The translations under genes were made by a program, and so were the position numbers. A stretch of DNA of 64,000 nucleotides, from positions 124,001 through 188,000 of the forward strand of contig SUVR01000004.1 in the NCBI GenBank assembly GCA_015061915.1. Direction: 5' to 3'. Below, in pieces: positions 116 to 26,683 of the stretch. Numbering within the stretch: position 1 is the first letter of the stretch; the number at the start of each line of letters is the position of its first letter. Origin of the DNA: Lentisphaerota bacterium. Its GTDB lineage: Bacteria > Verrucomicrobiota > Lentisphaeria > Victivallales > UBA1829. The notes beneath the pieces are model-generated. The model saw only the letters and a list, made by a program, of their open reading frames with translations. It was not told where the DNA came from and ran no database searches.

Positions 116-173
116 TGTAATTTCTCCTTAATGTAAATTGTTGTTTTCTGTTGATTCTGTGTTGGTTGTGCGA

Positions 174-413: not shown

Positions 414-467
414 TGTTTTATCTCCTTAATTTTGTGTTTGTTCTGTTAGTTGCTGTTGAGGTTCTGA

Positions 468-755: not shown

Positions 756-796
756 TGTAATTTCTCCTTATGATGTATTTTTTTGTTGTTTCGGCT

Positions 797-10168: not shown

Positions 10169-10558
10169 GGGAAGTGCGTTCCCGTCCGAGTTGTCCGAAT
10201 CATACGGCAAATAAATCCCCCTGTGCCGCAATGAAACGAAGTTGAGTTGGGCGGCACAATGAAAACACCCCTTTGAGGTGAAACAAAAAAAAACCGTGCG
10301 GCAAGCGAGCTTGCGAAGCTGCTTGTCCCACCATAGCTTCAGCAACGGCGGAAGCGGCACAATTAAAACACCCCTTTGAGGTGAAACAAAACCCCCTGTG
10401 CCGCAAACAAGCGAAGCGCAGTTGAGCGGCACAATTAAAACACCCCTTTGGGGTGCTCCCCCTTACCCCCATACTGCGATCAGTCGCCCGTCAAAAACAG
10501 ACCCGTCCGGATCACCGGGGAACGTTTCCCCGGCGACATAAAGGAACAGCGCGTCAAA
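10169..10558 (-). repeat. Composite hairpin-array repeat element, copy A
   Basis: A 390-base intergenic element that recurs in opposite orientation at 25481-25995. One end (10488-10558) carries a 60-base block identical to the other copy, including the perfect hairpin CCGGGGAAACGTTCCCCGG. The other end (10169-10200) carries a block beginning GGGAAGTGC and ending TTGTCCGAAT. Between them are two 35-base and one 65-base modules, each bounded by GTGCCGC and GCGGCAC, separated by linkers with CACCCCTTTGAGGTG-type hairpins. Open frames across it have no ribosome binding site and appear on both strands, so I read it as non-coding. It fills most of the gap between 10126 and the next gene. Confidence 0.85.
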
Positions 10559-10584
10559 CAAAAAGAGGAAAAAAAAGGAATAAA

Positions 10585-11367
10585 TCAGTCTTTTTTGCCG
10601 GCAAGGGAATGGATACTGCGGCTGATCATCTCATAGAGTTCGGCCCATTCCGGATGGTCGGCAAGACAACGCTTATGCTCGGTGATGATGTTCTCATCAT
10701 ACCGGATCGCAGGTCCAGTCTGGGCGGCAGCCGGTTCCAAGTCGTGTACCTTACTGGACGTCTCATCGATCAGCGGCAGCAGATCATCGAAATCCAGCCC
10801 CTTCTCCCGGAGGAGTTCGGAGGCAATGGAAAACATATGATTGGAAAAGTTATTGGCAAAGACAGCAGCAATATGAATGGACTTGCGCTGCTCGGATGTC
10901 ACAACACGCACCCGTTTGGAGATGGCAGTTGCCACCCGCTTCAGCTTCTTGAGCGTTCCCGCAGATTCCGCCTCAATAAACAGTGGGATGGAACTGAAAT
11001 CCAGATCCCGCTTCAGGCTCAGGGTCTGCAGGGGATAAAGCACCCCCCGGTGCTGGGCATAAGGTGCCAGAGAATCCAGGGGCATACTTCCAGCCGTATG
11101 GCAGACCGGAGTCGTCCCGAAGTGGATCTGACGCCATACACCTTCCGCCACGGAATCGCGCAGTGCGGAGATGATCAGATCCGCCTGATCCGCCTTGATC
11201 TCGCTGGGATCATCCGTGTAATCGGCGCCCCCGATCCGTTCCGCCAGACGGGCGGCATGGTCCATCTTCCGGCTGTAGATCTGGGTAAATTGAAAACCCG
11301 CCCGGAACAGAGCAGTTCCGAGCTGGGTTGCGGCATTTCCGCTGCCGAGCAGGATCAGTTTCTGCAT
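10585..11367 (-). CDS. Rossmann-fold/DUF2520 protein
   Basis: A 260-residue protein with an N-terminal NADP-type Rossmann motif (LILLGSGNAATQLGTAL) and a C-terminal helical DUF2520 domain containing the family pattern VFANNFSNHMFSIASELL. It resembles F420-dependent oxidoreductase/ketopantoate-reductase-like proteins; the substrate is unknown. The start at 11367 is chosen because the cyclophilin gene ends at 11372, leaving four bases; a longer frame up to 11481 would overlap cyclophilin. Probably co-transcribed with cyclophilin. Confidence 0.85.
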   Translation of the reverse strand: MQKLILLGSGNAATQLGTALFRAGFQFTQIYSRKMDHAARLAERIGGADYTDDPSEIKADQADLIISALRDSVAEGVWRQIHFGTTPVCHTAGSMPLDSLAPYAQHRGVLYPLQTLSLKRDLDFSSIPLFIEAESAGTLKKLKRVATAISKRVRVVTSEQRKSIHIAAVFANNFSNHMFSIASELLREKGLDFDDLLPLIDETSSKVHDLEPAAAQTGPAIRYDENIITEHKRCLADHPEWAELYEMISRSIHSLAGKKD

Positions 11368-11371
11368 AGGG

Positions 11372-11875
11372 TCATGCACGCTTGACACTGATGATACGGA
11401 CTTCGTCCACCGGAACGTCCTGGTGGAAACCGCGACTGGTCGTGCGGACCGCTTCGATCTGTTTGACCACATCCATACCATCTGTCACCTGCCCGAAAAC
11501 GCAGTATCCGAACATGGAGGGAGTGGGAGCGCGGAAGTCGAGGAAATCGTTATCCGCCACATTGATGAAGAACTGGCTGGTCGCACTGTCCACCACATTG
11601 GTCCGTGCCATGGCAATGGTGCCGATCTTATTGGAAAGTTTGTTGCCGGCTTCATTCTTGATGGGAGCATTGGTCTTTTTCTGGCTCATACCGAAATCCA
11701 TACCGCCGCCCTGAATCATAAAACCGGGGATCACGCGGTGAAAGATGGTGCCGTCATAAAACGCCGCATCCACATATTTCAGGAAGTTTTCAACAGTAAT
11801 GGGAGCTTCCTTTTCAAAGAGTTCGATCGTGATCGTACCAAGCGATGTTTCCATTTTGACAACAGGGTTTGCCAT
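11372..11875 (-). CDS. Cyclophilin-type peptidyl-prolyl cis-trans isomerase
   Basis: A 167-residue single-domain cyclophilin without signal peptide, so cytoplasmic. It shows [25 protein letters not shown], the catalytic-arginine motif [31 protein letters not shown] and FGYCVFGQV. It catalyses proline isomerisation in protein folding. It lies 24 bases downstream of ptsI. Confidence 0.93.
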
Positions 11876-11899
11876 GATTTCAATATCCTTCTGTTCGGG

Positions 11900-13735
11900 T
11901 TAAAAACCTTTATTCATTTTTGCGATCGAGGGAGCGATCCGGGCGATCAGTTCCTTGCAGCGGCTTGCCGTGTAGGCAGAGTTTGCTTCTCTGCGGACAT
12001 CCTTCACCAGCGATTCCGCCTCACGCATGGATAGTCTGCGGATGATCCGTCTGACCGGAGGCAGAGCACCGGGACTCATACTCAATTCCTGTACGCCCAA
12101 ACCAACCAGCAGCGGGGTAAACAGGGGATCGCCTGCAAGTTCCCCGCAGCAGCTGATCCAGATCTGATTTTCCCGTGCCGCCCCGGCTGCTGCCGCAATC
12201 AATTCGATCACAGCAGGGTGCATGGGGTTGTAAAGCTTTGCGACCTTTTCATTGCTCCGGTCAACTGCCAGCGTATACTGAACCAGGTCATTACTGCCAA
12301 TGGAGAAGAAGTCCGCTTTCTTTGCCAACTGATCTGCGATCAAAGCGGCGGAGGGGATCTCGATCATGATCCCGATATCCATATCATCATTAAAACTCAG
12401 ATCCCGCTCCCGCAATTCATCCTTCAGCTGTTCCAGCAGGTTCAGCAAGCCGTCCAGTTCTTCAACACTTGACACCATCGGGAACAGGATCTTGATGTCG
12501 CCATAAACACCAGCCCGAAGCAACGCCCGCAACTGATTCTTCAGCAGTTCAGGACGACTGAGACCAAGCCGGATCGCACGCATCCCCAAAAACGGGTTGG
12601 GTTCTTTCGGCAGGGAAATGGCTGCATCGAACTTATCTCCCCCCACATCCAATGTCCGGATGATAATCGGCTGTCCGGGCATACTTTCCGCCAGCGTTTT
12701 ATAGACCTGAAATTGCGTTTCTTCGTCCGGCAGGACCGGTTTGTTCATAAAAAGATATTCTGTCCGGAAAAGCCCGATCCCTTCCGCACAACTTTTGCGG
12801 ATTTCCTCAATTCCATCAATTCCCTCCACATTTGCCATCAACTGGATCACATAACCATCCGTTGTTTCAGCCAACATCCGGTTTTCTTTTTCCAGCTCCG
12901 AGAGCAACCGTTCCTGGCGACAGAGTTTCTCTGTATAAAACTCAATTGTCTCCGGGTTCGGATGAATGATGACCATCCCCAGATAGCCGTCAATGATGAC
13001 CTTATCGCCATCGGTCAACCGTTCAAAGATCCGGCGCATACCGACAACTGCGGGAATTTTCATAGAGCGGGCGAGGATTGCGGTATGGGATGTGGGACTT
13101 CCCGTTTCGATAGCAAATCCGATCACGTGGGAACGATCCAGCGTTGCGGTATCGGAAGGAGTCAAATCCCGTGCGATCACAATTACCGGTTCCGAAAAGG
13201 ATGCGACCTTTTTCTTATCCGCCAGTCCATCCAGATGAGCAAGGATTCTGTTTGCCACATCCTGAATATCTGCCGCCCGCTCCCGGAGATACTGGTCCGG
13301 CATACTGGACATGGCAGAAATATAACGTTCAATCGTCTGCTTGAAAGCGGTTCTTGCGGAAAGCAATTTTTTCTGAATCAGACTGATCACTTCTGTGCTG
13401 AGCATCCGGTCGTCAACGATCAGCAGATGGGCATCAAAGATTGCCGCCTCGCGTTCATCCAGAGAATCACGGAGCGTGGATTGCAAGTCCTTGATCTCGT
13501 TACGGGTCTGCTCCAGAGATTGTCTGAAAAGTTCAATTTCCGTTTCGATATTTTCCGGCAAGATCAAAACAGACTCGTTGGAAACGATATGTTTTTCCTG
13601 AGAACCGGAAAGATAGACCGGCGCAATGGCAATCCCCGGCGATGCCGGAATTCCATGGAAGAGGATTTCTTTTTTTTCGGAGACCATTTGCAATGATCCA
13701 CCGATCACGCTCTGTTCATTCTTCATCGAATCCAC
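11900..13735 (-). CDS. ptsI: PTS enzyme I (phosphoenolpyruvate-protein phosphotransferase)
   Basis: A 611-residue enzyme I, which passes phosphate from PEP to HPr. The N-terminal domain contains the phosphohistidine motif GSPTSHTAILARS. The PEP-binding C-terminal barrel shows LFRTEYLFM, RTLDVGGDK, NPFLGMRAIRL, MIEIPSA, DFFSIGSNDLVQY and ISCCGELAGD with the catalytic Cys. I chose a GTG start at 13735 because GGAGGAG lies ten bases upstream. ATG 13726 or 13687 are alternatives. It overlaps the HPr gene by 20 bases. No enzyme II gene is in the window. Confidence 0.92.
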   Translation of the reverse strand: MDSMKNEQSVIGGSLQMVSEKKEILFHGIPASPGIAIAPVYLSGSQEKHIVSNESVLILPENIETEIELFRQSLEQTRNEIKDLQSTLRDSLDEREAAIFDAHLLIVDDRMLSTEVISLIQKKLLSARTAFKQTIERYISAMSSMPDQYLRERAADIQDVANRILAHLDGLADKKKVASFSEPVIVIARDLTPSDTATLDRSHVIGFAIETGSPTSHTAILARSMKIPAVVGMRRIFERLTDGDKVIIDGYLGMVIIHPNPETIEFYTEKLCRQERLLSELEKENRMLAETTDGYVIQLMANVEGIDGIEEIRKSCAEGIGLFRTEYLFMNKPVLPDEETQFQVYKTLAESMPGQPIIIRTLDVGGDKFDAAISLPKEPNPFLGMRAIRLGLSRPELLKNQLRALLRAGVYGDIKILFPMVSSVEELDGLLNLLEQLKDELRERDLSFNDDMDIGIMIEIPSAALIADQLAKKADFFSIGSNDLVQYTLAVDRSNEKVAKLYNPMHPAVIELIAAAAGAARENQIWISCCGELAGDPLFTPLLVGLGVQELSMSPGALPPVRRIIRRLSMREAESLVKDVRREANSAYTASRCKELIARIAPSIAKMNKGF

Positions 13736-14003
13736 GATTGATCAGCTCCTCCAGCGCAGCCATAGCAGCTTCACAATCTGCGCCACTGATTTCGATTCGC
13801 AAAGTCGTGCCTTTCGGGGCAGCCAGCATCAGCATCCCCATAACGCTTTTGCCATCAGCACACTGGTTGGAAGACATATTCCGGACATTGATGTCTGATT
13901 CAAAGGTGAGCGCCGTTTGCACAAAAATAGAAGCCGGTCTGACATGAAGACCGTTCGTATTTTGTAAAACCAGTTCTTTTTTCAAAGACTTAATGCTGCT
14001 CAT
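13716..14003 (-). CDS. ptsH: Phosphocarrier protein HPr
   Basis: A 95-residue HPr with the active-site histidine in NTNGLHVRPASIFV (about residue 21) and the regulatory serine region GKSVMGMLML, which in many bacteria is phosphorylated by HPr kinase. Length is slightly above the usual 85-90. It is first in an operon with ptsI, read from the promoter at 14060-14088. Without enzyme II genes nearby it may work mainly in regulation (PTS-Ntr-like) or with EIIs elsewhere. Confidence 0.92.
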   Translation of the reverse strand: MSSIKSLKKELVLQNTNGLHVRPASIFVQTALTFESDINVRNMSSNQCADGKSVMGMLMLAAPKGTTLRIEISGADCEAAMAALEELINRGFDEE

Positions 14004-14059
14004 TATCGCCGTTTCCTGTTGTGTATGATGTGCATTACAACTTCCGCTTGCTTTATTAT

Positions 14060-14088
14060 AATATACATCCGGAAACGGGATTTTTCAA
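14060..14088 (-). promoter_or_regulatory. ptsH-ptsI promoter
   Basis: TTGAAA (14083-14088), 17 bases beginning AATCCCGTTT, TATATT (14060-14065), reading leftwards. The rest of the gap to 14297 is AT-rich and shows no further feature I can support. Confidence 0.7.
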
Positions 14089-14297
14089 GGCGGCAAAACG
14101 GTACAATCCGGTAAACGCCCTTTTTATCGTGCGAAAAACCTGCTTGTTTTTCGGGAAAACTTACTTGTTTTCTTTCAAGTTACAAAAAAGCAAAAATTTT
14201 TCTGACTTTTTTGAAAAAAATATTTTACATCCCGGCAAAAAAAGTCATCGAAGCTACACAATAAAATCGCAAAAGAATTTGAAAATTAACCGGTTGT

Positions 14298-14852
14298 TTA
14301 TTGCGTGACTCGCTTGAAACCGCACATTTTCAACAGTGCATCCTGTTCGGGCATAACCTGCATTTCAAAAATTGCGGTATCACCACCATCAACAACCTTT
14401 TCGACAAGGTCTGCATTGATCCTGACCAGCCTTGTTTTTCCGTCATCCGTTGGAAAGATTGTAAAAGAACACGGCAGGATCGCAGAAATACTGCGCCGGC
14501 GCTCCGTATTCAACAGCCGTTTTGCATACTCTTTATGACATAACTTAAACACAGTGATGTTTCCGGGGAGTTGGCAATATTCCCGTGTAACACTCCAGCC
14601 CGGAAGTGCAGCGCCCTGTTTTTCAAAAAGCGCAACCGCTTCCTCATAAGACAATTCAGTTTCATAAGTCAGGAGCAAATTATTCTGCAAATACCGTTCA
14701 CAGGAGCCGGCAATATTGTTCCGGACAAACAAAAAAGCAAAAATGGCAAACAGCGTTCCACCGCACACCATTCCGATCAATAATATACACAGCTCCCGTT
14801 TCCAGGAGATATTTTTTTTATGTTCACTCACCGAATCGGTTTCACGCTCCAT
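14298..14852 (-). CDS. Membrane-anchored DUF302-domain protein
   Basis: A 184-residue protein with one N-terminal membrane helix at about 19-43 (ELCILLIGMVCGGTLFAIFA), followed by a DUF302-like domain. The domain signature is seen in ITVFKLCHKEYAKRLLNTE, ILPCSFTIFPTDDGKTRLVRIN. In the family a Cys and the LPC segment line a putative ligand pocket; the function is unknown. The domain should face the periplasm. It follows the MarC-like gene by 13 bases and is probably co-transcribed with it. Confidence 0.75.
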   Translation of the reverse strand: MERETDSVSEHKKNISWKRELCILLIGMVCGGTLFAIFAFLFVRNNIAGSCERYLQNNLLLTYETELSYEEAVALFEKQGAALPGWSVTREYCQLPGNITVFKLCHKEYAKRLLNTERRRSISAILPCSFTIFPTDDGKTRLVRINADLVEKVVDGGDTAIFEMQVMPEQDALLKMCGFKRVTQ

Positions 14853-14865
14853 TGCATTTACCCTC

Positions 14866-15480
14866 TTACTGTAACCAGAAACCTTTTGCTCCGGTAAAGA
14901 TCATTTCCGCAGCAAGGGCGGATAAAATCAAACCGGTAAGTTTACTCAAAATAACGATCCCCTGATGTTTCAGAATCTTTTGCAGAAAATCCGAACCGCG
15001 CAGAATAAAAAACAGGGCGGTGTGAGCAAGGAGCAGTCCGCCGGTATAGATCAGCAGCGAACAGATCGAATTTGCATCTGCACCGAAAATCATCAAAGCA
15101 CCGGTCGTGGCAGGTCCAACCGTTACCGGGATGGCAAGCGGCACCACTGCAATGTCAGATTCCACTTCCGATGATTTATTTTTGACCTTTTCGGCTGCAC
15201 CGCCGACCAGTTGGATCGCAGACAGGAAAAGAAGCACACCGCCGCCGATCCGGAAGGCGTTCAGGGTAATTCCAAAAACATAGAAGATCCATCTGCCAAA
15301 CAGCAGGATCACCATACAGGCGATCAATGCCGCTGTAACAACCTTCCATGCGAGCAGTCTGCGTTTTTCCGAAGAATAATCCTTCGTGACCGAAAGGAAC
15401 ATAGACAGCACAAAGAACGGTGTCAGCAGAAAAAAGAATTTCAGCGAGACACTGATCAGATCGGACACATAATGCAACAT
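14866..15480 (-). CDS. MarC-family inner-membrane protein (second copy)
   Basis: A 204-residue six-helix membrane protein of the MarC family. It shows FFLLTPFFVLSMFLSVT in the first helix and the family motif DIAVVPLAIPVTVGPATTGALMI in the middle. It is clearly divergent from the MarC-like protein at 6094-6714, so this is not a recent duplication. It lies 31 bases after the TPR-protein gene and 13 before the DUF302 gene. Confidence 0.9.
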   Translation of the reverse strand: MLHYVSDLISVSLKFFFLLTPFFVLSMFLSVTKDYSSEKRRLLAWKVVTAALIACMVILLFGRWIFYVFGITLNAFRIGGGVLLFLSAIQLVGGAAEKVKNKSSEVESDIAVVPLAIPVTVGPATTGALMIFGADANSICSLLIYTGGLLLAHTALFFILRGSDFLQKILKHQGIVILSKLTGLILSALAAEMIFTGAKGFWLQ

Positions 15481-15511
15481 CGTTCCGACTCCGTATCTTA
15501 ATTAAAGCATT

Positions 15512-16897
15512 TTATTTGTTGTAATTTGCAGCCACCCGGTCCTTCACATCCCGGAATGTGATATCAGCAGAGTAGATCTGCTTGAAGCAGGAGAAGGCAT
15601 CTTCTTTCTTACCCATCGCTTCATAGGTCAAGCCGAGGCTGTAAAGAGTTTCCAGCTTCTGTTCATCAGCACCCAGCATATCTTTAAGCGCAGAAAGATA
15701 CTGCTCAACAGCCATATCATACTGACCCTTCGCCTGGAAACAGCGTCCCATATAAACAATAGCAGTAACGCGTTTCTGGGGGTGTCTCTGCGCCAGCTGG
15801 AACTGTTCCAGCGCATCATCAACACGAGTTCCCTGCCAGTAAAGTTCAGCAAGCTCGAAGCGGAGCTGGAGGTCGTTGGGATACTGCCGGACACGGTCTT
15901 CGCAGCGACCGAGCCGGTAGTTGTAAATTTCTTCTTCCTGTTCCTTGATATCTTCTTCTGTGCAGCCGGAGGCATGCATCGCTTCGAGGTTCTTCGTTGC
16001 GATACCCACATTGGCTTTTTCGATTGCTTTATCGATAGAGGGGTCAAGGGTCCCCATCTTTTCAACGATCCAGTTATAATGCTCCAATGCTTTCTCGAAC
16101 TGCTCCAAACGCATATAGTATTCAGTGAGTTTTCTGCGGTAGTCAATGGAGTCCGCTTCAGGTGCGCCGGAAGCGATCTTTTCTTCTGCGGCTGCGATTT
16201 CCGCCTGGATATCTTCCTCAAGCCGGATGATCTTGTCACCGGCAGATTTCGGATCGGCATTTTCGCGTTTCTGAATGGTGCTGCCCTGACCTTCGTCTTT
16301 GCTCCAGGTACTCGTCATCGTTGCCAGAGCTGCTGCCTCGCGGACCTTTGCCTGCAGTTCAAGGCTGTCCGGATGAAGGTCTGCAAGTTTCTGACGGATT
16401 TTCAGGACATTGTTGCCGTCTTTGACTTTTTCATAAAGTTCGCAAAGTTTGTTCAGATTCTGTTCATTCGCCGGTTCTGTTTCACGGATGATTTCCAATG
16501 CTTCGATTGCAATAAAGTGTGCTTCGGCAACTTTTGCTGCATCTGCCAATGTGTTCAGAGCTGCAGAGGAGTAGAGATAAATGGCAAGTGCTTCTTCAAT
16601 ATCGCTCATCGCTGCTTTCGGATTTTTAGACATAGTGCCTTTGGCCCGAACCAAAAACTTACCGGCCTTGAGCTGTCCCAGGAACTTCTTGAAACCACCC
16701 ATAGCATCGCTGTAGTTACGTTCAGCAGTACGGAGAGCTTCCCGTGCCTCCATAAAACCGGGTTCACGCTGAACAACAAACTTCAAAAGCTCGATAGCAT
16801 ATTTGACATTGTTTTTATTGAGCTCATTCTGCCCCTTCTGAAACTGAGTGCGCAGATTCGTGGATACATCTTTTAAACTTTTCTTTTCGATTGCCAT
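15512..16897 (-). CDS. Cytoplasmic tetratricopeptide-repeat protein
   Basis: A 461-residue, highly charged helical protein with TPR-like repeats through its length (for example EQFEKALEHYNWI, DDALEQFQLAQRHP, GQYDMAVEQYLSAL, GKKEDAFSCFKQI). It has no signal peptide. Residues 1-40 are amphipathic and rich in Lys/Gln. It should act as a protein-interaction scaffold; the partner is unknown. The start at 16897 (MAIEKK) is chosen over an upstream ATG at 16927 because the extra ten residues are not typical of a protein start. Similar proteins are frequent in the PVC superphylum. Confidence 0.85.
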   Translation of the reverse strand: MAIEKKSLKDVSTNLRTQFQKGQNELNKNNVKYAIELLKFVVQREPGFMEAREALRTAERNYSDAMGGFKKFLGQLKAGKFLVRAKGTMSKNPKAAMSDIEEALAIYLYSSAALNTLADAAKVAEAHFIAIEALEIIRETEPANEQNLNKLCELYEKVKDGNNVLKIRQKLADLHPDSLELQAKVREAAALATMTSTWSKDEGQGSTIQKRENADPKSAGDKIIRLEEDIQAEIAAAEEKIASGAPEADSIDYRRKLTEYYMRLEQFEKALEHYNWIVEKMGTLDPSIDKAIEKANVGIATKNLEAMHASGCTEEDIKEQEEEIYNYRLGRCEDRVRQYPNDLQLRFELAELYWQGTRVDDALEQFQLAQRHPQKRVTAIVYMGRCFQAKGQYDMAVEQYLSALKDMLGADEQKLETLYSLGLTYEAMGKKEDAFSCFKQIYSADITFRDVKDRVAANYNK

Positions 16898-17033
16898 GTT
16901 CGGACTCCAACAGTTGTATTTTTGCAAAAATGCAGTATATTATTTGATGCGGATATATTAACAGCACTTTCGCCTTATTGCAAGCGTTGTTTTATATTTT
17001 TTTGAAAAAATTTCAAGCTTTCAGGTGGTTTTA

Positions 17034-18386
17034 ATGCAAAAAATAATGACAGATGATACAATTTGTGCTATATCGACTGCTCCCGGCGGTGCATTAGCCA
17101 TTTTACGGCTTTCCGGTCCGGCATCCGCTGAAATCGCGGAAAAAGTATGGTTCTCGAAAGGCGTTCCGCTGCATGAGACAAAGCGGGTTATGCGGCTCGG
17201 ACATACTCTATCCGCAGATGGCGAAACTTGCCTTGCCGTCTTTATGCCGGGACCTCACAGCTATACCGGAGAAGACGTTGTCGAATTACAATGTCATGGC
17301 GGAGATTTCGCACCGGATCGATTGTTGAAAGCATTACTGGCAAATGGTGCCCGGCTGGCAGATCCCGGTGAGTTTACACGGCGGGCATTCCTTAATGGAA
17401 AAATGGACCTGACGCAGGCCGAAGCGGTCCTGGATCTGATCCAGGCCCGTACTGCCGATGCAGCAAGTCTGGCAGAACGGCAGCTTTCCGGTGTCCTGGG
17501 AAAAAAGATCAGTGAAACAGCAAAGGATCTTCCCGGAGTGCTTGCAGAAATCGAATCCCGTCTTGATTTTCCTGAGGAAGATTTGGATTGGCGTTCACCG
17601 GAAGAATTGATCGCCGTCATTGCACCGGTTTTGGATAAGATCCGTGCGCTTTTAGCCGGCAGCAGAGCCGGCTCTATAATCCGGAACGGAGTCAGACTTG
17701 TAATCGCAGGTGCCCCGAATGTGGGAAAGTCCAGTTTGTTGAACCGGATTCTCGGCTACGACCGTGCGATCGTAACGGAAATCCCGGGGACGACACGCGA
17801 TACTGTAGAGGAAAATGCTGTGATTCGCGGAATTCACTTCCGCCTGACCGATACCGCCGGCGTTCGTGAAGATGCCGCAGACAAAGTCGAGGAATTCGGC
17901 ATTAAACGTTCCAAAGAATCCCTGAAGTCGGCAGAAGTCGTGATCTGGCTTTTGGATTTAACACAAGAACATGAACCACAGCTCCGTGAAATGGAAAAAC
18001 GGGTTGCGGATGCAGAATGTCATGCAAAAGTAATACACTGCTGGAACAAGAAAGATATTGCATTACAAACTGGCAAATTCCCGTGCGAAGTTTCTGTGGA
18101 AAACGGCGATGGTATTGAGATGCTGTACGATGAACTGGCAAAAGCCGTTTTTACAGAACCGGGAGAGCGGGAATCGGAAAGTGCCATTGCTCAGCGACAC
18201 GAAAAACTGTTGAACGAAGCATTGACCCGGTTGGAATCTGCGATTCCGGAACTGTGCGCAGAGGCATGGGAGTTGGCTGCAGTCCATATCCGGGAAGCAA
18301 TTTATGATCTGGGAACGATTACCGGTGAAAACGTTTCACCCGATGTTCTGGATGAAATTTTTTCCAGGTTCTGCATCGGCAAATAA
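17034..18386 (+). CDS. mnmE: tRNA uridine-5-carboxymethylaminomethyl modification GTPase MnmE
   Basis: A 450-residue MnmE/TrmE, which with MnmG makes the cmnm5 modification on U34 of tRNAs. The N-terminal formyl-THF-binding domain has DTICAISTAPGGALAILRLSGP. The central G domain has GAPNVGKSS (about 226-234), GTTRDT and DTAG. The C-terminal helical domain ends with the invariant FCIGK, whose Cys is needed for activity. ATG 17034 is preferred because AGGTGG lies just upstream; GTG 17025 is the longer option. Transcribed alone, divergent from the TPR gene. Confidence 0.96.
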   Translation: MQKIMTDDTICAISTAPGGALAILRLSGPASAEIAEKVWFSKGVPLHETKRVMRLGHTLSADGETCLAVFMPGPHSYTGEDVVELQCHGGDFAPDRLLKALLANGARLADPGEFTRRAFLNGKMDLTQAEAVLDLIQARTADAASLAERQLSGVLGKKISETAKDLPGVLAEIESRLDFPEEDLDWRSPEELIAVIAPVLDKIRALLAGSRAGSIIRNGVRLVIAGAPNVGKSSLLNRILGYDRAIVTEIPGTTRDTVEENAVIRGIHFRLTDTAGVREDAADKVEEFGIKRSKESLKSAEVVIWLLDLTQEHEPQLREMEKRVADAECHAKVIHCWNKKDIALQTGKFPCEVSVENGDGIEMLYDELAKAVFTEPGERESESAIAQRHEKLLNEALTRLESAIPELCAEAWELAAVHIREAIYDLGTITGENVSPDVLDEIFSRFCIGK

Positions 18387-18472
18387 CAAGCCAAATAACA
18401 GTTTTTCACTCTATTTGTAAAAATCTTACACCATTTTCGTGGTTTTTTTTAACTTTTTTCTGCATTGAGGAC

Positions 18473-18501
18473 TTGACTTTCTCCTTTTTTCATTCTATCT
18501 T
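18473..18501 (+). promoter_or_regulatory. Promoter of LamG/glycosidase-like operon
   Basis: TTGACT (18473-18478), 17 bases, TATCTT (18496-18501), about 60 bases before the start codon. Confidence 0.7.
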
Positions 18502-18564
18502 ACCCTGATATTATTTATTAAAATTGATCAAGAACATCTGAAATTTTCAGGAAAGGTTTTCAGA

Positions 18565-21231
18565 ATGAAAAAACATTTGCTCTCTGCTCTGCTTTTGTGT
18601 TTTTCTGTTGCATTAACTGCCGCACCGCAGTTGCCAAAACAGGATCCGCTGGTCGACTTTACCGAAATCAAGACTGACAATGGAAAATGGATCGATAAAA
18701 CCGGTAATGCTGTAATCACACCGGGAAAAACGGCAAAGGAAGGCGTAGGACCATTCGGTAAAAAAGCCTTCTGTTTTGATGGAACGAGAAGTTCCGTTTC
18801 CTCATTGGACCTGAGCAAGATTTTTGCAAAACTGGATGGATTCGACTATTCTCTTTCTTTCTGGTTCAAATGCGATAATTTTCTGAACACGAAAGAAAAT
18901 AATCAGGCAGCCGGAAATTATATCGGGATCGGCATGAAAATGAATTCTCTGGAACACGCCACATTCAGCATCGGCGGTATCGGTCGTGGCGGCATCGGGT
19001 CCGGCTGGTTCCAGATCAATCCGAAACGTTGGAATCATTTAGCGGTTGTATACTCTCAGGAAAAGCGTATGGCACGCCTTTACATCAACGGCTTGGCGAT
19101 CGTCGACAGCAATGGCGGAAAATTCTGGCCGCTGGATCAGGCAGGATACAAAGTCCTGAATATCGGCGGTTTCAAAGGAACTCTTGCTGATGTCCAAATC
19201 TGGGATAAGCCGATCCCGCCGGAACAGGTCCTCAACATGACGCTCACGCCCGAATATGTGAAGTCTCTTCATGCGGATATTGATGACATCACCGCAAAAT
19301 GCGATAATGCCCCCGGCGCTGTGCTGATGACCGGCATCCTGCATGATGAACTGGATAAACTTGCCGCCATGAAGCCCGTCCCCATGCTGGCTTATGACAA
19401 ACTGCTCAAACGCCTTGCTGCCACGGAAAAAATGATCCCGGCAGTCAAAGCTCTCCGCAAAACAAAACTGGTGAATGCACCTTTTGCCTATATGCAGGTC
19501 CGGGCGATCAGTCCTGAAATCCGGATCCCCACCAAATATCCCTCCGACCCCGTTTATTCCGATGAACTGAAGGGAACTGCGGCAAAAGGTGAATATGCCT
19601 CCCTCTCTTTCATTATGTATCCATATATGGATATGAAGAAGATCGAGTTTGAGCTGAACGATCTGAAGGACAGCAAGGGCAATGTGATCGGCAAGGACGA
19701 ACTGGAACTCAAGTTTGTCCAGTGCTGGTATCAGCCCGGCTGGAATACCTACTTCAACGGGTCCGGCAACTACGTGCCCAGCCTTCTGCTGAACGACCCG
19801 GAACTGCTCCGGATCGATGAACGGACAAAGACCAACTATGTCCGCTTCTTCTATCCAGACGGCGTGCAGTACCACAACGTGTGTATCCCCGGCAGTACGG
19901 TGACCCACCCCGAATTCAACTGGGCTTTTGAACCGGTTTGGGATGCGGATACACTCCAGCCGATCCCCTGTGATTTCGGACGGAATCGTCAGTTCTGGCT
20001 GGTTGCTCACGCCCCGGAAAATGCCAAAGCCGGCATCTATCGCGGACCGATCAAGATCAAGACCGAAGGCAAAGTCACCGGCGAGATCACTCTTGAGCTG
20101 AAGGTCCTGCCTTTTTCTCTTCCCATGCCAATGACGCAGTTCGATCACAGCCTGCCTTTCGATCCATCTCTCGCAAGCAGCATCAATGTGGACTCCATGA
20201 CCGCAACACTGAAAGACCCCAAGCGTGCGGAAGAAATGACGATCGCTCACATGATGAACCAGCGCAAGCACAGCATCCTTTCCCAGCCCCTCGGCATTTC
20301 TGTTGCCAGACCGGAAAGTCTGAAAAAGATGATCGAACTTCACAAGCAAATGGGACTCCGCATTACCAATATGTATGGCGGTGCAGCTCATACAAAATTC
20401 CGTGAATTCGGCGATACCAGACCGTATTGGACGACAATGGAAAAGCACATGGTGGAAGCGGAGCTGGCAAAACACAAAGCCCATGTCGATCAGGTCGCCG
20501 CTCTGGCTGACCGTTTCGGACTTGACCGGAAATATATCTTCTTCTATGGAAAAGACGAATGTCAGGGCGCAAACGGTCTCCGGGAAGAATTCCCGTTCCG
20601 TGACTACATTTTCCGCAACGGTATGAGAACCAGAACCACCGGTTGGGAAGACAACTACCGAAACTCTCCCTCCCACGAAACCTATCATACCACTGCAGCC
20701 TATGTCTCTTACAGAAATGCAGACCGCTGGCATGCCATGCGTGCCCAGATCACCGCGTACTGCGCCCCCTTCATGGGACCGGACAACCCGCACCTGATGC
20801 GCTACACTCACGGGCTCGTCCCCTTCCGTCATAACTATGATGGTTGGTGGGAACTGGCGTATGCCGGAAGCGCTCACGAATGGAACAACCGCTTTGGCTG
20901 GGATACCACCTACCGCCCGTTCCGAGTGGCGGTCCTGACGCAAAAAGGTCCCATCATCAACACCATCGCCTTCAGCGGTGTCCGTGCCGGACAGGACGAC
21001 GTCCGTTACGCAACGCTTATGTATCAGTTGGCGGATGAATGTTTCAAAACCGGCAAGCCTGAATGTATTATCGCTGCCAGAAAGGCAATCGCCTGGTTCA
21101 GAGGACAGCCCATGCCTACCGGTACGCCGGGGATCAGTATGTCTATGGATATTGACCTGTATGACTACCGTGAAAAAGTAACATATCACATCATTTCCCT
21201 GATGAAAGTCCTCGGAAAAACCATTGAATAA
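18565..21231 (+). CDS. Secreted LamG-domain plus DUF4091-like glycosidase-type protein
   Basis: An 888-residue exported protein. Residues 1-20 form a signal peptide ending ALTAA. Residues 30-230 look like a concanavalin/LamG-type lectin domain (FCFDGTRSSV, YSLSFWFKCDN, WNHLAVVYSQEKRMARLYINGLAI, VQIWDKPIP). After a helical linker, residues 320-880 resemble DUF4091/glycosyl-hydrolase-like domains (AGIYRGPIKIKTEG, LKVLPFSLPMP, YIFFYGKDEC, then a Trp- and Tyr-rich barrel-like part). It probably binds and trims a polysaccharide outside the cytoplasm; the specificity is unknown. First of a likely operon with a secreted TPR protein and cysK. Confidence 0.75.
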   Translation: MKKHLLSALLLCFSVALTAAPQLPKQDPLVDFTEIKTDNGKWIDKTGNAVITPGKTAKEGVGPFGKKAFCFDGTRSSVSSLDLSKIFAKLDGFDYSLSFWFKCDNFLNTKENNQAAGNYIGIGMKMNSLEHATFSIGGIGRGGIGSGWFQINPKRWNHLAVVYSQEKRMARLYINGLAIVDSNGGKFWPLDQAGYKVLNIGGFKGTLADVQIWDKPIPPEQVLNMTLTPEYVKSLHADIDDITAKCDNAPGAVLMTGILHDELDKLAAMKPVPMLAYDKLLKRLAATEKMIPAVKALRKTKLVNAPFAYMQVRAISPEIRIPTKYPSDPVYSDELKGTAAKGEYASLSFIMYPYMDMKKIEFELNDLKDSKGNVIGKDELELKFVQCWYQPGWNTYFNGSGNYVPSLLLNDPELLRIDERTKTNYVRFFYPDGVQYHNVCIPGSTVTHPEFNWAFEPVWDADTLQPIPCDFGRNRQFWLVAHAPENAKAGIYRGPIKIKTEGKVTGEITLELKVLPFSLPMPMTQFDHSLPFDPSLASSINVDSMTATLKDPKRAEEMTIAHMMNQRKHSILSQPLGISVARPESLKKMIELHKQMGLRITNMYGGAAHTKFREFGDTRPYWTTMEKHMVEAELAKHKAHVDQVAALADRFGLDRKYIFFYGKDECQGANGLREEFPFRDYIFRNGMRTRTTGWEDNYRNSPSHETYHTTAAYVSYRNADRWHAMRAQITAYCAPFMGPDNPHLMRYTHGLVPFRHNYDGWWELAYAGSAHEWNNRFGWDTTYRPFRVAVLTQKGPIINTIAFSGVRAGQDDVRYATLMYQLADECFKTGKPECIIAARKAIAWFRGQPMPTGTPGISMSMDIDLYDYREKVTYHIISLMKVLGKTIE

Positions 21232-21255
21232 CGGAAAGAGAAAGGATATACGATC

Positions 21256-22680
21256 ATGAAACATAAATTTCTTCTGACAATGACTCTCCTTTCCGCCCTC
21301 AGCATCTCTGCTGTTGCCGGGGAATATGAAAACTACATCAAAGAAGCGGAAGGTGCATCTCTGGAAAAACGCATTGAACTCTGGCTGAAAGCTGCCGATT
21401 CCACTGCGGACAACACAAAGAAATTGACCATGTACCGTCAGGCGTATGAACTGGCGAAACGGATCAATGACGAAAAAAGCATCCTTTATCTGGCGGATAC
21501 GATCTATAAATTCCCCGGAGTGCCCGAAGCAGAAAAACAGGAAGCACGCTACCAGTTTCTGGTTGTCGCCCGCAACAGCGCCCGCAGGACGCTGAACTAC
21601 GAAGGGCGTTTCTCAAGATTACGGATCGTTATGGATGGCGTTACCCCGCAGGATTATAAAGATTTTCTGAAGACCCCCGGCATTACGCCGGAACGGGAAA
21701 AGAAAATCTCACTCATGCTGGCATCCATTCTTCATGATTACAATCTCTGGTATCAGGAAATCGAATTGCGCAAGAAATTGCTGGAACGGACGGACCTGAC
21801 TTCCACGGAACGGCAGGACCAGTATCTGATCCTTTCCAGTGTTTATCTTTCTATGAACAACATGGCGGATTCTGTGAAAAGTCTCCGGTCGCTGCTGGCA
21901 ATCAAGTCCCTGACGCCGGATCGCCGGATCCGCACACTGATCATTCTCGGCGATACCTTCCGCAAGGGGTATGGCTGGTATTACTATCCCAACGCAGAGC
22001 AGTACAAGGAAATGTCAGACAGCTACAAAGCTGCCATGGATCTTTCCGCCAAGCGCCGCAGAGGGGGGTATTATAATCAGGCATTGCTCAAGATGATCGA
22101 AGGTGCCCACTTTCTGGAAAAATCCGCAGATGTCGTGAAACTGTGCAACCGCTATATCAACAATAACAAACTGGTTGACGGCAGCACCTGGAAAAAAGCG
22201 AAAACGCTGGAGGGGACCCATCTGCTCAAGTTGAACCGTTATCCCGAAGCGATTGCCATCTTTGAAGACCTTTACAAGTATAAACACGACCTGGCGAACA
22301 CCTGTATGTCCCTCGGTCAGAGCTATTATCTCAACGATGACTTTTCCATGGCACTCGGTATGTATGATGAAGCGATCGTAGAGCTGGGTATGGACGATAG
22401 CGCCCGGCCGAGACAGTGCAAAAACTGGTGCAACACGCTGCGCGGTCTGCTGGGCAAGAAAGCCCGGCTGGATGCGGCTTATGTTGCCCGTGCCAAGCGT
22501 TTGAATGCAGAAGCCAAGGCCGCCGGAAAAGCTCCGGTTGTAAAAGTCAACACCCCGGACTCCCTGAATCCGTTTGCCAATCAGAAAGTCCCGAAAAAGA
22601 AACCCAAAACGATGGAAGATCTGATGAAGTCTTCTGATGACGGTCCGGACCTGCTTGGCGGCGGCTTGAATCTGGATTAA
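21256..22680 (+). CDS. Exported TPR-like protein
   Basis: A 474-residue protein with a signal peptide (residues 1-21, ending AVAGE) and helical TPR-like repeats (EKRIELWLKAADS, TKKLTMYRQAYELAKRI, YPEAIAIFEDLYKYK, DFSMALGMYDEAIVEL). The C-terminal 60 residues are Lys/Pro-rich and end in DDGPDLLGGGLNLD. Function unknown; by position it may form a complex with the LamG protein, whose gene ends 24 bases upstream. AAAGGA precedes the start. Confidence 0.75.
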   Translation: MKHKFLLTMTLLSALSISAVAGEYENYIKEAEGASLEKRIELWLKAADSTADNTKKLTMYRQAYELAKRINDEKSILYLADTIYKFPGVPEAEKQEARYQFLVVARNSARRTLNYEGRFSRLRIVMDGVTPQDYKDFLKTPGITPEREKKISLMLASILHDYNLWYQEIELRKKLLERTDLTSTERQDQYLILSSVYLSMNNMADSVKSLRSLLAIKSLTPDRRIRTLIILGDTFRKGYGWYYYPNAEQYKEMSDSYKAAMDLSAKRRRGGYYNQALLKMIEGAHFLEKSADVVKLCNRYINNNKLVDGSTWKKAKTLEGTHLLKLNRYPEAIAIFEDLYKYKHDLANTCMSLGQSYYLNDDFSMALGMYDEAIVELGMDDSARPRQCKNWCNTLRGLLGKKARLDAAYVARAKRLNAEAKAAGKAPVVKVNTPDSLNPFANQKVPKKKPKTMEDLMKSSDDGPDLLGGGLNLD

Positions 22681-22689
22681 AAGGTTACT

Positions 22690-23613
22690 ATGGAAAAGAT
22701 CAAAAATTCCATTCTGGAGACGGTTGGCTCAACGCCGTTGGTCCGGATCAATCAGCTCAATACCGGGAAAGCAGAAATTCTGGTCAAAGTAGAATCCCGC
22801 AACCCCGGCGGAAGTGTGAAAGACCGTGTTGGTATCGCCATGGTGGAGGATGCGGAAAAGCGCGGCTTGATCAAGCCCGGTGCCTGCATTGTGGAGCCGA
22901 CCAGCGGCAATACAGGAATCGGTCTGGCGGTCGCTGCTGCAGTAAAAGGCTATAAGTTGATTCTGACCATGCCGGATACCATGAGTATTGAACGGCGCAA
23001 ACTTCTGGCTGCTTTCGGCGCAAAGATCGAATTGACTCCCGGTGCGGAAGGAATGAGCGGCGCCATTGCCAGAGCAAAAGAGATCCTGGCGGAAAATCCC
23101 GGTTCGTGGATGCCCCAGCAGTTTGAAAATCCGGCAAATCCAGCCGCCCATTACGCTGCTACCGGTCCGGAGATCTGGGACGATTGCGGCGGCAGGATCG
23201 ACCTCTTTGTAGCCGGTGTCGGAACTGGTGGAACGCTCTCCGGCGTGGCAAAATATCTGAAAGAAAAAGATCCGGCGGTGCAGGTCGTTGCGGTGGAGCC
23301 GGCGGATTCCCCGCTTCTTTCCGGAGGTACTGCCGGTCCGCATAAATTGCAGGGGATCGGGGCGAATTTTATTCCTGCCACTCTGGATCGTTCCTGCGTG
23401 GACCGGGTCATCCCTGTGACGGATCAGGATGCGGGGGAAACCGCCCGTGCCTGTGCTGCCCGGGAAGGGATTTTGATCGGGATCTCCGGCGGAGCTGCGC
23501 TCTATGCTGCACTGACCCTTTCCGCAGAGCCGGAAAATACCGGAAAGCGGATCGTTGTGTTGCTGCCGGACAGCGGTGAGCGCTATCTCTCCAGTTGGCT
23601 TTTTGCCGAGTGA
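22690..23613 (+). CDS. cysK: Cysteine synthase A (O-acetylserine sulfhydrylase)
   Basis: A 307-residue PLP enzyme that makes cysteine from O-acetylserine and sulfide. The lysine motif NPGGSVKDR is at 38-46, with the substrate loop PTSGNTGIG, the phosphate loop GVGTGGTLSG, KLQGIGANFIP and the C-terminal LPDSGERYLS. Length and motifs are those of CysK. It starts nine bases after the TPR gene and converges on zwf with only three bases between the stops, so no separate terminator fits there. Confidence 0.94.
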   Translation: MEKIKNSILETVGSTPLVRINQLNTGKAEILVKVESRNPGGSVKDRVGIAMVEDAEKRGLIKPGACIVEPTSGNTGIGLAVAAAVKGYKLILTMPDTMSIERRKLLAAFGAKIELTPGAEGMSGAIARAKEILAENPGSWMPQQFENPANPAAHYAATGPEIWDDCGGRIDLFVAGVGTGGTLSGVAKYLKEKDPAVQVVAVEPADSPLLSGGTAGPHKLQGIGANFIPATLDRSCVDRVIPVTDQDAGETARACAAREGILIGISGGAALYAALTLSAEPENTGKRIVVLLPDSGERYLSSWLFAE

Positions 23614-23616
23614 ATC

Positions 23617-24993
23617 TCAACGGAAAAACGGTACTGCCGGACCGGTTGAACCAGCCTCATAAATGACCGGATCGCCCTTCATATTCTGCACCGGATCCAG
23701 CAGTTGCCACGCTGCCCGGATGGAATCGGAGCGGATAAACAGCATCCGGTCATCCAGCATGGTATCCAAGAGCAGCCGTTCGTAGGCATCCGGCATATTT
23801 TCACCGGAAAGGCTGGCATAGTTAAAATTCATATCCAAAGCACCCATACAGAGTTTGGGGCCGGGGTGTTTCGCCTGAATCGTCAAGCTCAAACCTTCCT
23901 GCGGCTGAATGGAAAATACCAAACGGTTTTGAACCAGCGCCTCTGCCGGAATTCCGGGAAAGATGGAGTCATCCTGACGGCGGAAACGGACTTCGATTTC
24001 TGTTCGTTTTTCAGCGAGTTTCTTACCGCAGGAAAGGTAAAACGGCACCCCGCGCCACCGCTCGTTATCAACAGCAAGGCGGGCAGCAAAATAAGTTTCC
24101 GTCTTTGATTCCGGATCCACTCCGGGTTCTTCCCGGTAACCGGCGTATTGTCCGAAAATGACATCTTCCTTTTTCAGGGGAAGAATCGCCCGGATGAGCT
24201 TTGTTTTTTCGTCATGGAGGGCATCAGCAGTAAATGCTCCGGGCTTTTCCATCGCCACGAGTGACATCAGTTCCAACATATGATTCTGAAACATATCCCG
24301 CACGATTCCGGTCCGGTCAAAATATTTTGCCCGGTTTTCCACGCCCAGCGTTTCGCTGACGGAGATACGGACCGACTCAATATTTTCCCGATTCCAGAGC
24401 GGCTCAAAGATCCGGTTGGCAAAACGGAAGAAAAAGAGGTTCTGGACCGTTTCCTTACCCAGATAGTGATCGATCCGGAAGATCTGTTCCTCCCGCAGGA
24501 TCCGGTGCAGACGGTTGTCAAAAGCGGTGGCACTGGCAAGGTCACTGCCGAAGGGCTTTTCCAATACGACCCGGGTATGTTCTGTGATGATACCATCACT
24601 GCTTAAAACATCCAGCAAGTCCATATAAATATCCGATGGCAAAGAAAGGTAAAAGACATTTTCCGATGGCAAAGGACAGGCTTCTTTCAGCGACTCAAGA
24701 TGACCTCGCAAGGCAGTGCGGACGGCAGGTTCAAAGCTGTCGCCGCAGATGGTATCGATCCGGGCCAGAAAATCCGATGGATAAAGACCGGAGAGATCTT
24801 TGGCAGTCCGGGCGCAGGCAATGATCCGCGAACGTTCATGCAGGAGTCCGCTCCTGTGAAGCTGATACAGCGCAGGAAAGAGTTTCCGCTGCGCCAGATC
24901 CCCGTTCGCCCCGAATACGACCAGCCGGACCGGCAACGGCATAACTTCCATACAAAAACCGCCACGCCAGCGGAATGTTTCCTGTCCCTCCAT
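23617..24993 (-). CDS. zwf: Glucose-6-phosphate 1-dehydrogenase
   Basis: A 458-residue enzyme for the first step of the oxidative pentose phosphate pathway. It has the coenzyme motif VVFGANGDLAQRKLFPALYQL, then EKPFGSDLASA, the substrate-binding signature RIDHYLGKETVQN (His/Lys catalytic region) and a RDMFQNHMLELM motif. The start at 24993 overlaps the stop of the zinc-ribbon gene as TGATG, so the two are coupled. The expected partners (6-phosphogluconolactonase, Gnd) are not in the window. Confidence 0.95.
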   Translation of the reverse strand: MEGQETFRWRGGFCMEVMPLPVRLVVFGANGDLAQRKLFPALYQLHRSGLLHERSRIIACARTAKDLSGLYPSDFLARIDTICGDSFEPAVRTALRGHLESLKEACPLPSENVFYLSLPSDIYMDLLDVLSSDGIITEHTRVVLEKPFGSDLASATAFDNRLHRILREEQIFRIDHYLGKETVQNLFFFRFANRIFEPLWNRENIESVRISVSETLGVENRAKYFDRTGIVRDMFQNHMLELMSLVAMEKPGAFTADALHDEKTKLIRAILPLKKEDVIFGQYAGYREEPGVDPESKTETYFAARLAVDNERWRGVPFYLSCGKKLAEKRTEIEVRFRRQDDSIFPGIPAEALVQNRLVFSIQPQEGLSLTIQAKHPGPKLCMGALDMNFNYASLSGENMPDAYERLLLDTMLDDRMLFIRSDSIRAAWQLLDPVQNMKGDPVIYEAGSTGPAVPFFR

Positions 24994-25370
24994 CAAAGCA
25001 GTTCCCGCTTTTCGTATTGAGGGCAGTCATCCATGGGACCGACATCCCTGTCGTGCAGGGAGCAATAGATCCGAAAGGCATTCATGACCCGGTGCTTACA
25101 GTCACGGCAGAAACGGCGTTCCGTTTGTTCAAAGGGGTTGGCGATTTTTTCGGTGTCGTCGCCGCCAAGCAATGCTGCCAGAGCATTGGTCTTCGGTGCA
25201 GCAGGCTCTGCGGTTGCGGCTGATACTTCTTTGATCTCTTCCACCAGCACACCGCAGGATGCACACTTGAGGACCTCACCGACTTTGGTCCAGCCATCCA
25301 TTACCGATTCTTTCTTCAAAAAGGAACTGTTCCCGCAGTGGGGACAATCCCAGGAATCACCGACTTTCAT
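24993..25370 (-). CDS. Double zinc-ribbon protein, unknown function
   Basis: A 125-residue protein with two metal-binding parts. The N-terminal ribbon is CPHC (residues 9-12) paired with CASC (about 36-39). The C-terminal cluster is FCRDCKHRV...IYCSLHDRDVGPMDDCPQYEKRE. The middle (45-80) is Ala/Pro-rich and likely flexible. It may bind nucleic acid or act as a metal- or redox-dependent regulator; I do not recognise a family. It is translationally coupled to zwf and read from the promoter at 25414-25441. Confidence 0.75.
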   Translation of the reverse strand: MKVGDSWDCPHCGNSSFLKKESVMDGWTKVGEVLKCASCGVLVEEIKEVSAATAEPAAPKTNALAALLGGDDTEKIANPFEQTERRFCRDCKHRVMNAFRIYCSLHDRDVGPMDDCPQYEKRELL

Positions 25371-25413
25371 TGCTGATCTACTCCTTCATCGAGACTTGTT
25401 TCTTGCTCCTTAC

Positions 25414-25441
25414 AAGGTAGCACAGACCGCTGAAAAATCAA
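25414..25441 (-). promoter_or_regulatory. Promoter of zinc-ribbon-zwf operon
   Basis: TTGATT (25436-25441), 16 bases, TACCTT (25414-25419), reading leftwards. Confidence 0.5.
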
Positions 25442-25480
25442 GAGGGATCTTTGTTTCAGACCTGTTTTTTAAGGCTTTTG

Positions 25481-25995
25481 TTTGACGCCCGGTTCCTTTA
25501 TGTCGCCGGGGAAACGTTCCCCGGTGATCCGGACGGGTCTGTTTTTGACGGGCGACCAATCGCATGATGGGGGTAAGGGGGAGCCGTCAAAAACAGCACC
25601 CCAAAGGGGTGTTTTAATTGTGCCGCTCAACTGTGCTTCGCTTGTTTGCGGCACGGGGGTTTTGTTTCACCCCAGAGGGGTGTTTATTGTGCTGCTTCCG
25701 CCGTCGCTGAAGCTATGGCGGGACAAGCAGCTTCGCAAGCTCGTTTGCGGCACGGGGGTTTTTGTTTCACCCCAGAGGGGTGTTTATTGTGCCGCTTCCG
25801 CCGTCGCTGAAGCTATGGCGGGACAAGCAGCTTCGCAAGCTCGTTTGCGGCACGGGTTTTTTGTTTCACCCCAGAGGGGTGTTTTAATTGTGCTGCTTCC
25901 GCCGTCGCTGAAGCTATGGCGGGACAAGCAGCTTCGCAAGCTCGTTTGCGGCACGGGGGGATTTATTCGGACAATCCGGACGGAAAGCACTTCCC
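25481..25995 (+). repeat. Composite hairpin-array repeat element, copy B
   Basis: A 515-base intergenic element, the inverted partner of 10169-10558. From left to right: an end block with TTTGACGC, the hairpin CCGGGGAAACGTTCCCCGG and GACGGG repeats (25481-25552); one 35-base module (25620-25654); three 65-base modules (25689-25753, 25789-25853, 25890-25954) at a period of about 100 bases; and the other end block (to 25995). Each module is bounded by GTGCYGC and GCGGCAC. Linkers carry CACCCCAGAGGGGTG followed by T-rich sequence. A plus-strand open frame (25482-26051) runs through it but has no ribosome binding site and simply translates the repeat. Confidence 0.87.
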
Positions 25996-26085
25996 GGTAT
26001 CCCCGGTATCCCCATAATAAATCAGCACTCCGGGCAGGTCCGCCATCGTGAAAAATTATTTTTTCGCAAACAGAGGATTGCGGAC

Positions 26086-26113
26086 TTGATTTTTTGGAAT
26101 GAGAGCGTATTTT
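26086..26113 (+). promoter_or_regulatory. Promoter of DUF2062 gene
   Basis: TTGATT (26086-26091), 16 bases, TATTTT (26108-26113), about 35 bases before the start codon. Confidence 0.55.
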
Positions 26114-26146
26114 ACCAGAAAAAACAGTAATAGAGAAAGAGATCGT

Positions 26147-26683
26147 ATGAAAAAATTTTCATTACGCCGCTTATATTTCAAGGTAATGCAGCAGGAGGGA
26201 ACGCCGGAAAGCGTTGGCAGAGGCATTGCCATCGGGCTTTTTATCGGCTTTATTCTGCCGATCGGAACACAGACATTCCCAGCCCTGTTTCTTGCTTTTC
26301 TTTTCAAGGCAAACAAAGCGCTGACCTGGCTGTTCACCTGCGTTTCCAATCCGGCATCGATCTTTATTCTGTATCCGATCCAATGTTATACGGGCAGTCT
26401 GCTGATTTTGCGCCCGATGAGTTTTGCCGATCTGAACGATAAATTCGGTGCGATCGTGCAGGCAGAAGGCATAAAGGAAGTGGCACTTGCATTCTGGAAT
26501 CTGGGCAGTGAGATCATGATCACCTTTTTTGTCGGCGGTCTGTTCTACGGCACGATCCTTGCCATTTCCGGCTACTGGCTCGGCTCCCGTCTGGTACGCC
26601 TTTACCGGGCACGGAAAGAAAAGAAACGCCAGGAACGGCGTCTCAACGCATCCGGGCGACAGGGAGCTGGACCTTCAATCTGA
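26147..26683 (+). CDS. DUF2062-domain membrane protein
   Basis: A 178-residue protein with the DUF2062 signature early on (QEGTPESVGRGIAIGLFIGF, PIGTQTFPALFLAFLF, NKALTWLFTCVSNP) and two to three hydrophobic hairpins, then a basic C-terminal tail (RARKEKKRQERRL). Members are often found beside envelope or glycosyltransferase genes; the function is unknown. The start 26147 has GAGAAAGAG upstream. Its end overlaps the end of the convergent TRIC-like gene by 41 bases. Confidence 0.85.
   Translation: MKKFSLRRLYFKVMQQEGTPESVGRGIAIGLFIGFILPIGTQTFPALFLAFLFKANKALTWLFTCVSNPASIFILYPIQCYTGSLLILRPMSFADLNDKFGAIVQAEGIKEVALAFWNLGSEIMITFFVGGLFYGTILAISGYWLGSRLVRLYRARKEKKRQERRLNASGRQGAGPSI

Follow-up and report, generated by a model that had tools for sequence, protein, structure and literature searches.

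Organization of the hairpin-array element

The window analysed here is a 64,000-nucleotide stretch (G000:C10:124001-188000) of the 2.49-Mb genome of a gut bacterium of the Lentisphaeria (G000). It carries two copies of a structured element, copies A and B, which lie in opposite orientation and 15 kb apart. The left end of copy B (25465-25488, plus strand) consists of a T-tract (25465-25470) and the sequence TTTTGTTTGACGC (25476-25488), a motif that it has in common with phage-derived genes. The conserved head of 116 nt (25481-25596, plus strand; covariance model, alignments A1 and A3) contains the 12-bp hairpin 1 (25502-25528) and stem 2 (25539-25596), in which a nearly invariant inverted repeat, CTGTTTTTGACGG (25539-25551) and CCGTCAAAAACAG (25584-25596), encloses a G-rich loop. 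Behind the head, and on the same strand, come a first terminator-like linker hairpin (25597-25611), a 35-nt hairpin unit (25620-25654) and three 65-nt units (25689-25753, 25789-25853 and 25890-25954), the first of which is predicted to form a three-way junction, with further linker hairpins at 25668-25682, 25768-25782 and 25867-25881. A 3' block, TTCGGACAATCCGGACGG (25966-25983, read by eye), recurs at the ends of other copies.

An earlier note, made from the letters of the window, had described three 65-nt units at a 100-base period plus one 35-nt unit, and this arrangement was confirmed, with spacings of 100 and 101. The pair GTGCYGC/GCGGCAC indeed closes every unit of the copy B array, and the linkers are CACCCCA(A/G)AGGGGTG followed by T-rich sequence. 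The left boundary had to be moved: the left end is conserved as a fixed block, but it starts about 16 nt before 25481 and includes a second T-tract.

Copy A occupies about 10223-10563 of the minus strand. Its left end and truncated head (10443-10563) carry TTTTGTTTGACGC at 10551-10563 and lack the 3' arm of stem 2. The array (10223-10432) has three units in the order short (10398-10432), long (10296-10360) and short (10223-10257), so the number of units differs between the copies, as the earlier note had stated. A 189-aa open reading frame at 25482-26051 was judged accidental. The head itself was also considered as a coding sequence: a short frame starts from a conserved ATG/GTG, but it has no ribosome site, the frame and its stops vary between copies, and the changes between copies alter residues. 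Rfam 15 gave no match at the gathering score in the window, and at E<=1 the region had chance-level matches only.

Copies and distribution of the element family

With a covariance model of the head, 14 head copies were detected in G000 and 10 in a sister genome, G001 (RGIG8655, a Lentisphaeria MAG from water-deer cecum). Confinement of the repeat to its two places in the window, which the earlier note had named as speaking against its reading, was thus not borne out. The same model gave no convincing head copies in 197 further relatives, and no relatives of the head were found in phage, plasmid and viral-contig collections. Two pattern matches outside the genus (L104 and L106) lack a left end with TTTGACGC and seem to be due to chance. 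Among the genomes and collections searched, the family is restricted to one genus.

The family consists of dispersed, non-coding, structured elements. From left to right they comprise a T-tract, TTTTnTTTGACGC, hairpin 1, the inverted repeat with its G-rich loop, terminator-like linkers alternating with GTGCCGC...GCGGCAC units, and then a block such as TTCGGACAATTCGGAC. Each copy has the conserved head of about 116 nt, and in 12 of the 14 copies it is followed by 1-9 hairpin units; the range runs from none in the head-only copies L021 and L022 to about nine in L020. Since a TTCGGAC block also recurs at the 3' end of copies, the description as an expandable structured repeat with fixed end blocks holds for the whole family. 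One locus (L023) has three units without a head, and a few single units occur at other places in the genome. The copies are intergenic, often directly after host terminators. Most lie 3' of a same-strand gene, usually beyond that gene's own terminator, while copy B lies upstream of a gene reading away from it.

Some arrays are accompanied by other sequences. Another repeat, CACGCTGAAGGCGTGC ... GCCTATGGGCTTGCCCATAGG(TC), is found 3' of the arrays in L012, L013 and L102 and also in L110. A further module near AATCGTGCGCCAAACAAAC...GTTGAGGCGCACAAATAAATCAGCC stands behind some arrays, in their 3' part (L014, L016, L095, L098 and L100).

Predicted structure and covariation

The predicted fold of 25481-25956 has an energy of -226 kcal/mol (z = -6.1). 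For each of the two 65-nt units tested, the three-way junction that had been proposed for the long units came out as the fold of lowest energy, but the centroid fold of the unit in the window copy (L009) differs from it. Head hairpin 1 was paired in 100% of cells across 20 copies and has three pairs with changes on both sides; these possibly represent one event, since all are carried by the orthologous pair L022/L086. In the unit-closing stem 96% of cells were paired and two pairs had changed on both sides, the variants being GTGCCGC/GCGGCAC, GTGCGGC/GCCGCAC, GTACGGC/GCCGTAC and GTGCTGC/GCAGCAC. The linker hairpin was 97% paired, with changes on both sides in five of its six pairs (CACCCC-AAA-GGGGTG, GGGCGC-AAA-GCGCCC and GGGTGC-AAA-GCACCC). 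Its covariation score was 0.86 versus 0.32 in shuffles, and 20 of its cells had changed on both sides versus 7.6, these shuffles ignoring relatedness. The earlier note had considered that covariation might fail to support the pairing; the predicted head hairpin, unit-closing stem and linker hairpins are all supported by it. An extra outer head stem (columns 11-15 with 51-55) was rejected, with only 79% paired cells.

Ten terminator-like sites were predicted in 25300-26150, compared with 1.4 +/- 1.1 in shuffles. Nine of them, nearly all, are on the plus strand, along which the left-end motif points. The linker hairpins look like intrinsic terminators on one strand. Together with the location of most copies behind a same-strand gene, this would agree with an array that consists of intrinsic terminators or stabilises mRNA 3' ends and that passively insulates transcription 3' of host genes in a BIME-like manner. 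That function is improbable, as it leaves the conserved head, the left-end motif and the head-only copies unexplained; moreover, copies usually stand beyond the host gene's own terminator, and copy B precedes a gene that reads away from it.

Stem 2 is without covariation because its sequence hardly changes, and this near-invariance hints at sequence-specific recognition. Each head contains the heptamer TTTGACG three times, twice directly and once inverted as CGTCAAA. With three such sites in each of 14 copies, the element could be a DNA decoy that titrates a regulator of the phage-derived genes, the array being incidental, and the retention of the stem 2 sequence beyond what pairing needs would fit such a role. 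However, the inner sites end in G and not in C, and hairpin 1 and the units show the covariation of paired structures, something that a decoy in duplex form would have no need of. We consider a decoy very unlikely.

The left-end motif and phage-derived genes

Wherever the left end of a copy is visible (21 copies), TTTGACGC is present, mostly as TTTTnTTTGACGC, and in the element heads it has T-tracts at -5 to -2 and -16 to -11 beside it. Exact matches to TTTTnTTTGACGC occur 15 times in G000, nine in elements and six upstream of same-strand genes, namely those for a Mu-like portal, a large terminase, a 388-aa protein, dnaA, a small membrane-protein-like gene and a 163-aa protein. One-mismatch matches lie in front of the small terminase gene and of a 125-aa gene as well. 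At dnaA, TTTTGTTTGACGC lies about 100 nt upstream (L156 / L184; G000:C25:45676, minus strand). The 163-aa protein (L168:4215-4890, G000:C11) has paired Cys residues, weak helix-turn-helix matches and two TTTGACGC copies upstream, and is a candidate regulator; it had no solved-structure match.

No sigma-70 promoter was found in the element region. The motif stands 35-60 nt before most start codons, which is too close for a standard -35 box, and it may represent the core of an unusual promoter, or else an activator site. A site acting at the RNA level is less likely, because a T-rich stretch lies upstream of the motif.

The Mu-like portal gene is followed in one operon by genes for a protease, the major head protein and gp36. 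This operon and the genes of both terminase subunits are located on three contigs, among other genes. The Mu-like head and terminase loci with TTTGACGC upstream are L164:1122-4637 (G000:C9), L165:4374-5729 (G000:C20) and L166:7215, minus strand (G000:C27). Close relatives of the large terminase (50-73% identity) were found in 15 genomes beyond the genus and close relatives of the portal (39-54% identity) in 13; the closest viral contigs contained no relative of the terminase.

Having been derived from G000, the motif was tested in other genera; with that of G000 itself, seven genera of two families were covered. In 23 of 31 terminase and portal loci (G000 and relatives), TTTGACGC occurred no more than 150 nt upstream of the predicted start; the remaining sequence of these loci, 243 kb of strand, had 9 matches. 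The corresponding binomial value of 2e-45 should not be read literally, since it counts related genomes as independent. When the gene sites were aligned on the motif, the logo was TTTTnTTTGACGC-T-C/T, the same as at the element left ends. A second T-tract, 10-11 bp further upstream, is found at element ends only and often coincides with the T-run of a host terminator. Outside the genus the large terminase gene stands among different neighbours; the motif therefore travels with the gene.

Gene transfer agents and other domesticated phages are exemplified by RcGTA and VSH-1. As in these, phage head and packaging genes are kept here among host genes, at separate places and apparently with one common cis motif, and have relatives in the family. 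The dispersed Mu-like head genes and terminases are thus candidates for a gene-transfer-agent-like system, and the comparison concerns the neighbouring regulon and not the element. We know of no multi-copy hairpin-array element in a regulon of this type.

Evolution and mobility of the element

For at least six head positions, a head with a common flank exists in the sister species (L009/L097, L012/L096, L013/L099, L014/L095, L017/L103 and L022/L086). Several of these pairs share one flank only, because contigs of G001 break inside the copies. Units have been swapped inside unchanged flanks, for instance GTGCGGC...GCCGCAC in L014 versus GTGCTGC...GCAGCAC in L095. With divergent copies excluded, head similarity is 0.955 within G001, 0.936 within G000 and 0.927 between the genomes. 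That heads are closer to their own genome than to the other is a hint of gene conversion; three orthologous head pairs remain best matches to each other. Arrays would change by recombination between copies and by exchange at hairpins. In G001, the left flank of one window copy adjoins the right flank of its counterpart, the arrangement that an inversion between the two copies would produce, and the 15 kb between them (window 10223-26000) appear to be inverted relative to the sister genome (L097, L100).

We infer that the element has been mobile, and the positions common to two species make its movement old or rare. The main rival to the explanation given below is a selfish, non-autonomous DNA element, MITE- or REPIN-like, in which the head and hairpins would be recognition sites for a trans-acting enzyme, the array would have no host function, and the left end would be captured from, or merely resemble, the phage-gene motif. 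The dispersed intergenic copies, often directly after host terminators, agree with it, as does the inverted recurrence of TTTGACG across the head. Moreover, the sole Y1 match in G000, a half-domain in a 94-aa IS200-like TnpA fragment (L118:1501-1677; G000:C1:73958-74134, minus strand), shows that such enzymes were once present. However, searches of this 97%-complete genome for two families, Pfam Y1_Tnp and RVT_1 (controls positive), yielded neither a RAYT or complete Y1 transposase nor a reverse transcriptase. Target-site duplications were not seen at the copies, and in an empty-site test on the joined flanks of nine loci one locus was contiguous, with a TTTTGTTTGACGCTCCGG remnant, and no clean empty site was obtained. 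The sharing of at least six positions between two species also argues against it, and chance is hard to accept for a 13-nt match to a motif kept before phage genes in other genera. A selfish origin is accordingly rather unlikely. The non-autonomous mobile element of the earlier note thus fits the dispersal of the copies but finds no support in the enzymes or duplications looked for.

In G001, the counterpart of the head-less array L023 (L107, about 1880-2040; G001:C238) reads TTTTGTTTGACGCTCCGG ... CCGGAGAATTCGGACAG; here both end blocks apparently flank a short hairpin without a head.

Comparison with known repeats

Among known kinds, REP/BIME/REPIN repeats and MITEs come closest. REP, BIME and REPIN sequences are dispersed intergenic palindromic repeats associated with RAYT transposases (PMC3116915, PMC2817692, PMC3733652). 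The element resembles them in its dispersed intergenic palindromes, hairpins, tandem clusters and one sequence family per lineage. In contrast to REPs and REPINs, no RAYT or complete Y1 transposase was found for it in G000, whose 97% completeness leaves a little room for one, and its conserved head has no GTAG tag by a 20-40 bp palindrome (alignments A1 and A3, by reading). It is also far larger (a head of about 116 nt plus 35- and 65-nt units) and carries the motif common to phage-derived genes.

CGTC-tagged REPs are single palindromes of 20-40 bp with an unpaired CGTC at one end, a CCA-like tail and no dedicated transposase (PMC3733652). The element is likewise palindromic, without a dedicated transposase, and has CGTC in its head (as CGTCAAA and its complement), but this CGTC is paired inside stem 2, where a 13-bp inverted repeat forms part of a large composite element. 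Like MITEs and IS200-IS605-derived palindromic elements, the family is non-coding, multi-copy, structured and intergenic; no target-site duplication or parent element was found for it, and its positions are largely stable between two species. Nor did G000 give any match to RVT_1, the reverse transcriptase expected for reverse-transcribed elements such as retrons and group II introns.

A putative structured RNA of the phage-derived regulon

The explanation that we favour, tentatively and at a little short of an even chance, is that the element is non-coding and yields a structured RNA, and that its promoter-like site belongs to a domesticated, gene-transfer-agent-like phage regulon. The 5' cis motif of the regulon is present on the elements. 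This motif, a T-rich stretch plus TTTTnTTTGACGC, would be a promoter or activator site of the regulon; transcription of each element would start at its left end while the regulon is on and give a stable structured RNA, and the terminator-like linkers would end transcription in or after the array. We infer co-transcription with the phage genes because the motif has the same orientation at the element and is followed there by a structured region and terminator-like hairpins; this is the weak step of the explanation. The array of small RNAs suggested by the earlier note is a possible reading, made more plausible by the promoter-like motif at the 5' end.

The simplest idea for the role of such an RNA is feedback on the same regulon, as the head has two more TTTGACG sites, in the form of a nearly invariant inverted repeat, that could bind the regulator. 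The CGUCAAA arm of the head could also pair with UUUGACG in the leaders of phage genes, if that stretch is transcribed. A more specific proposal, which we consider doubtful, is that the elements encode multi-copy structured hairpin-array RNAs of a domesticated, gene-transfer-agent-like phage regulon in Lentisphaeria, with the kind of promoter used by the terminase and capsid genes, and that these RNAs regulate or join particle production. Against the favoured explanation, the motif also precedes genes not known as phage-derived (dnaA and others), and the terminator-like hairpins right behind the head could merely insulate host genes. The element is restricted to one genus whereas the phage-gene motif occurs in seven, and the phage genes therefore do not need the element.

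The family is an apparently undescribed intergenic repeat tied to a conserved motif before captured phage genes. The purpose of hairpin-array repeats becomes a directly testable question here, namely whether they are switched on with the phage genes, and if the link to the regulon is proved, the element would be a new kind. A gene-transfer-agent-like system that appears not to have been described, together with a candidate control site for it, is also indicated in the Lentisphaeria; full-text literature searches for such a system and control site in this group found no paper.

Apart from the element, the start of the window (1-787) has direct repeats 147 and 248 nt long, with spacings of 298 and 342. 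It also contains 3.6 repeats of TTTTTTGCAT (1330-1365) and, within overlapping open frames, 27/33-nt tandem repeats (56247-56410).
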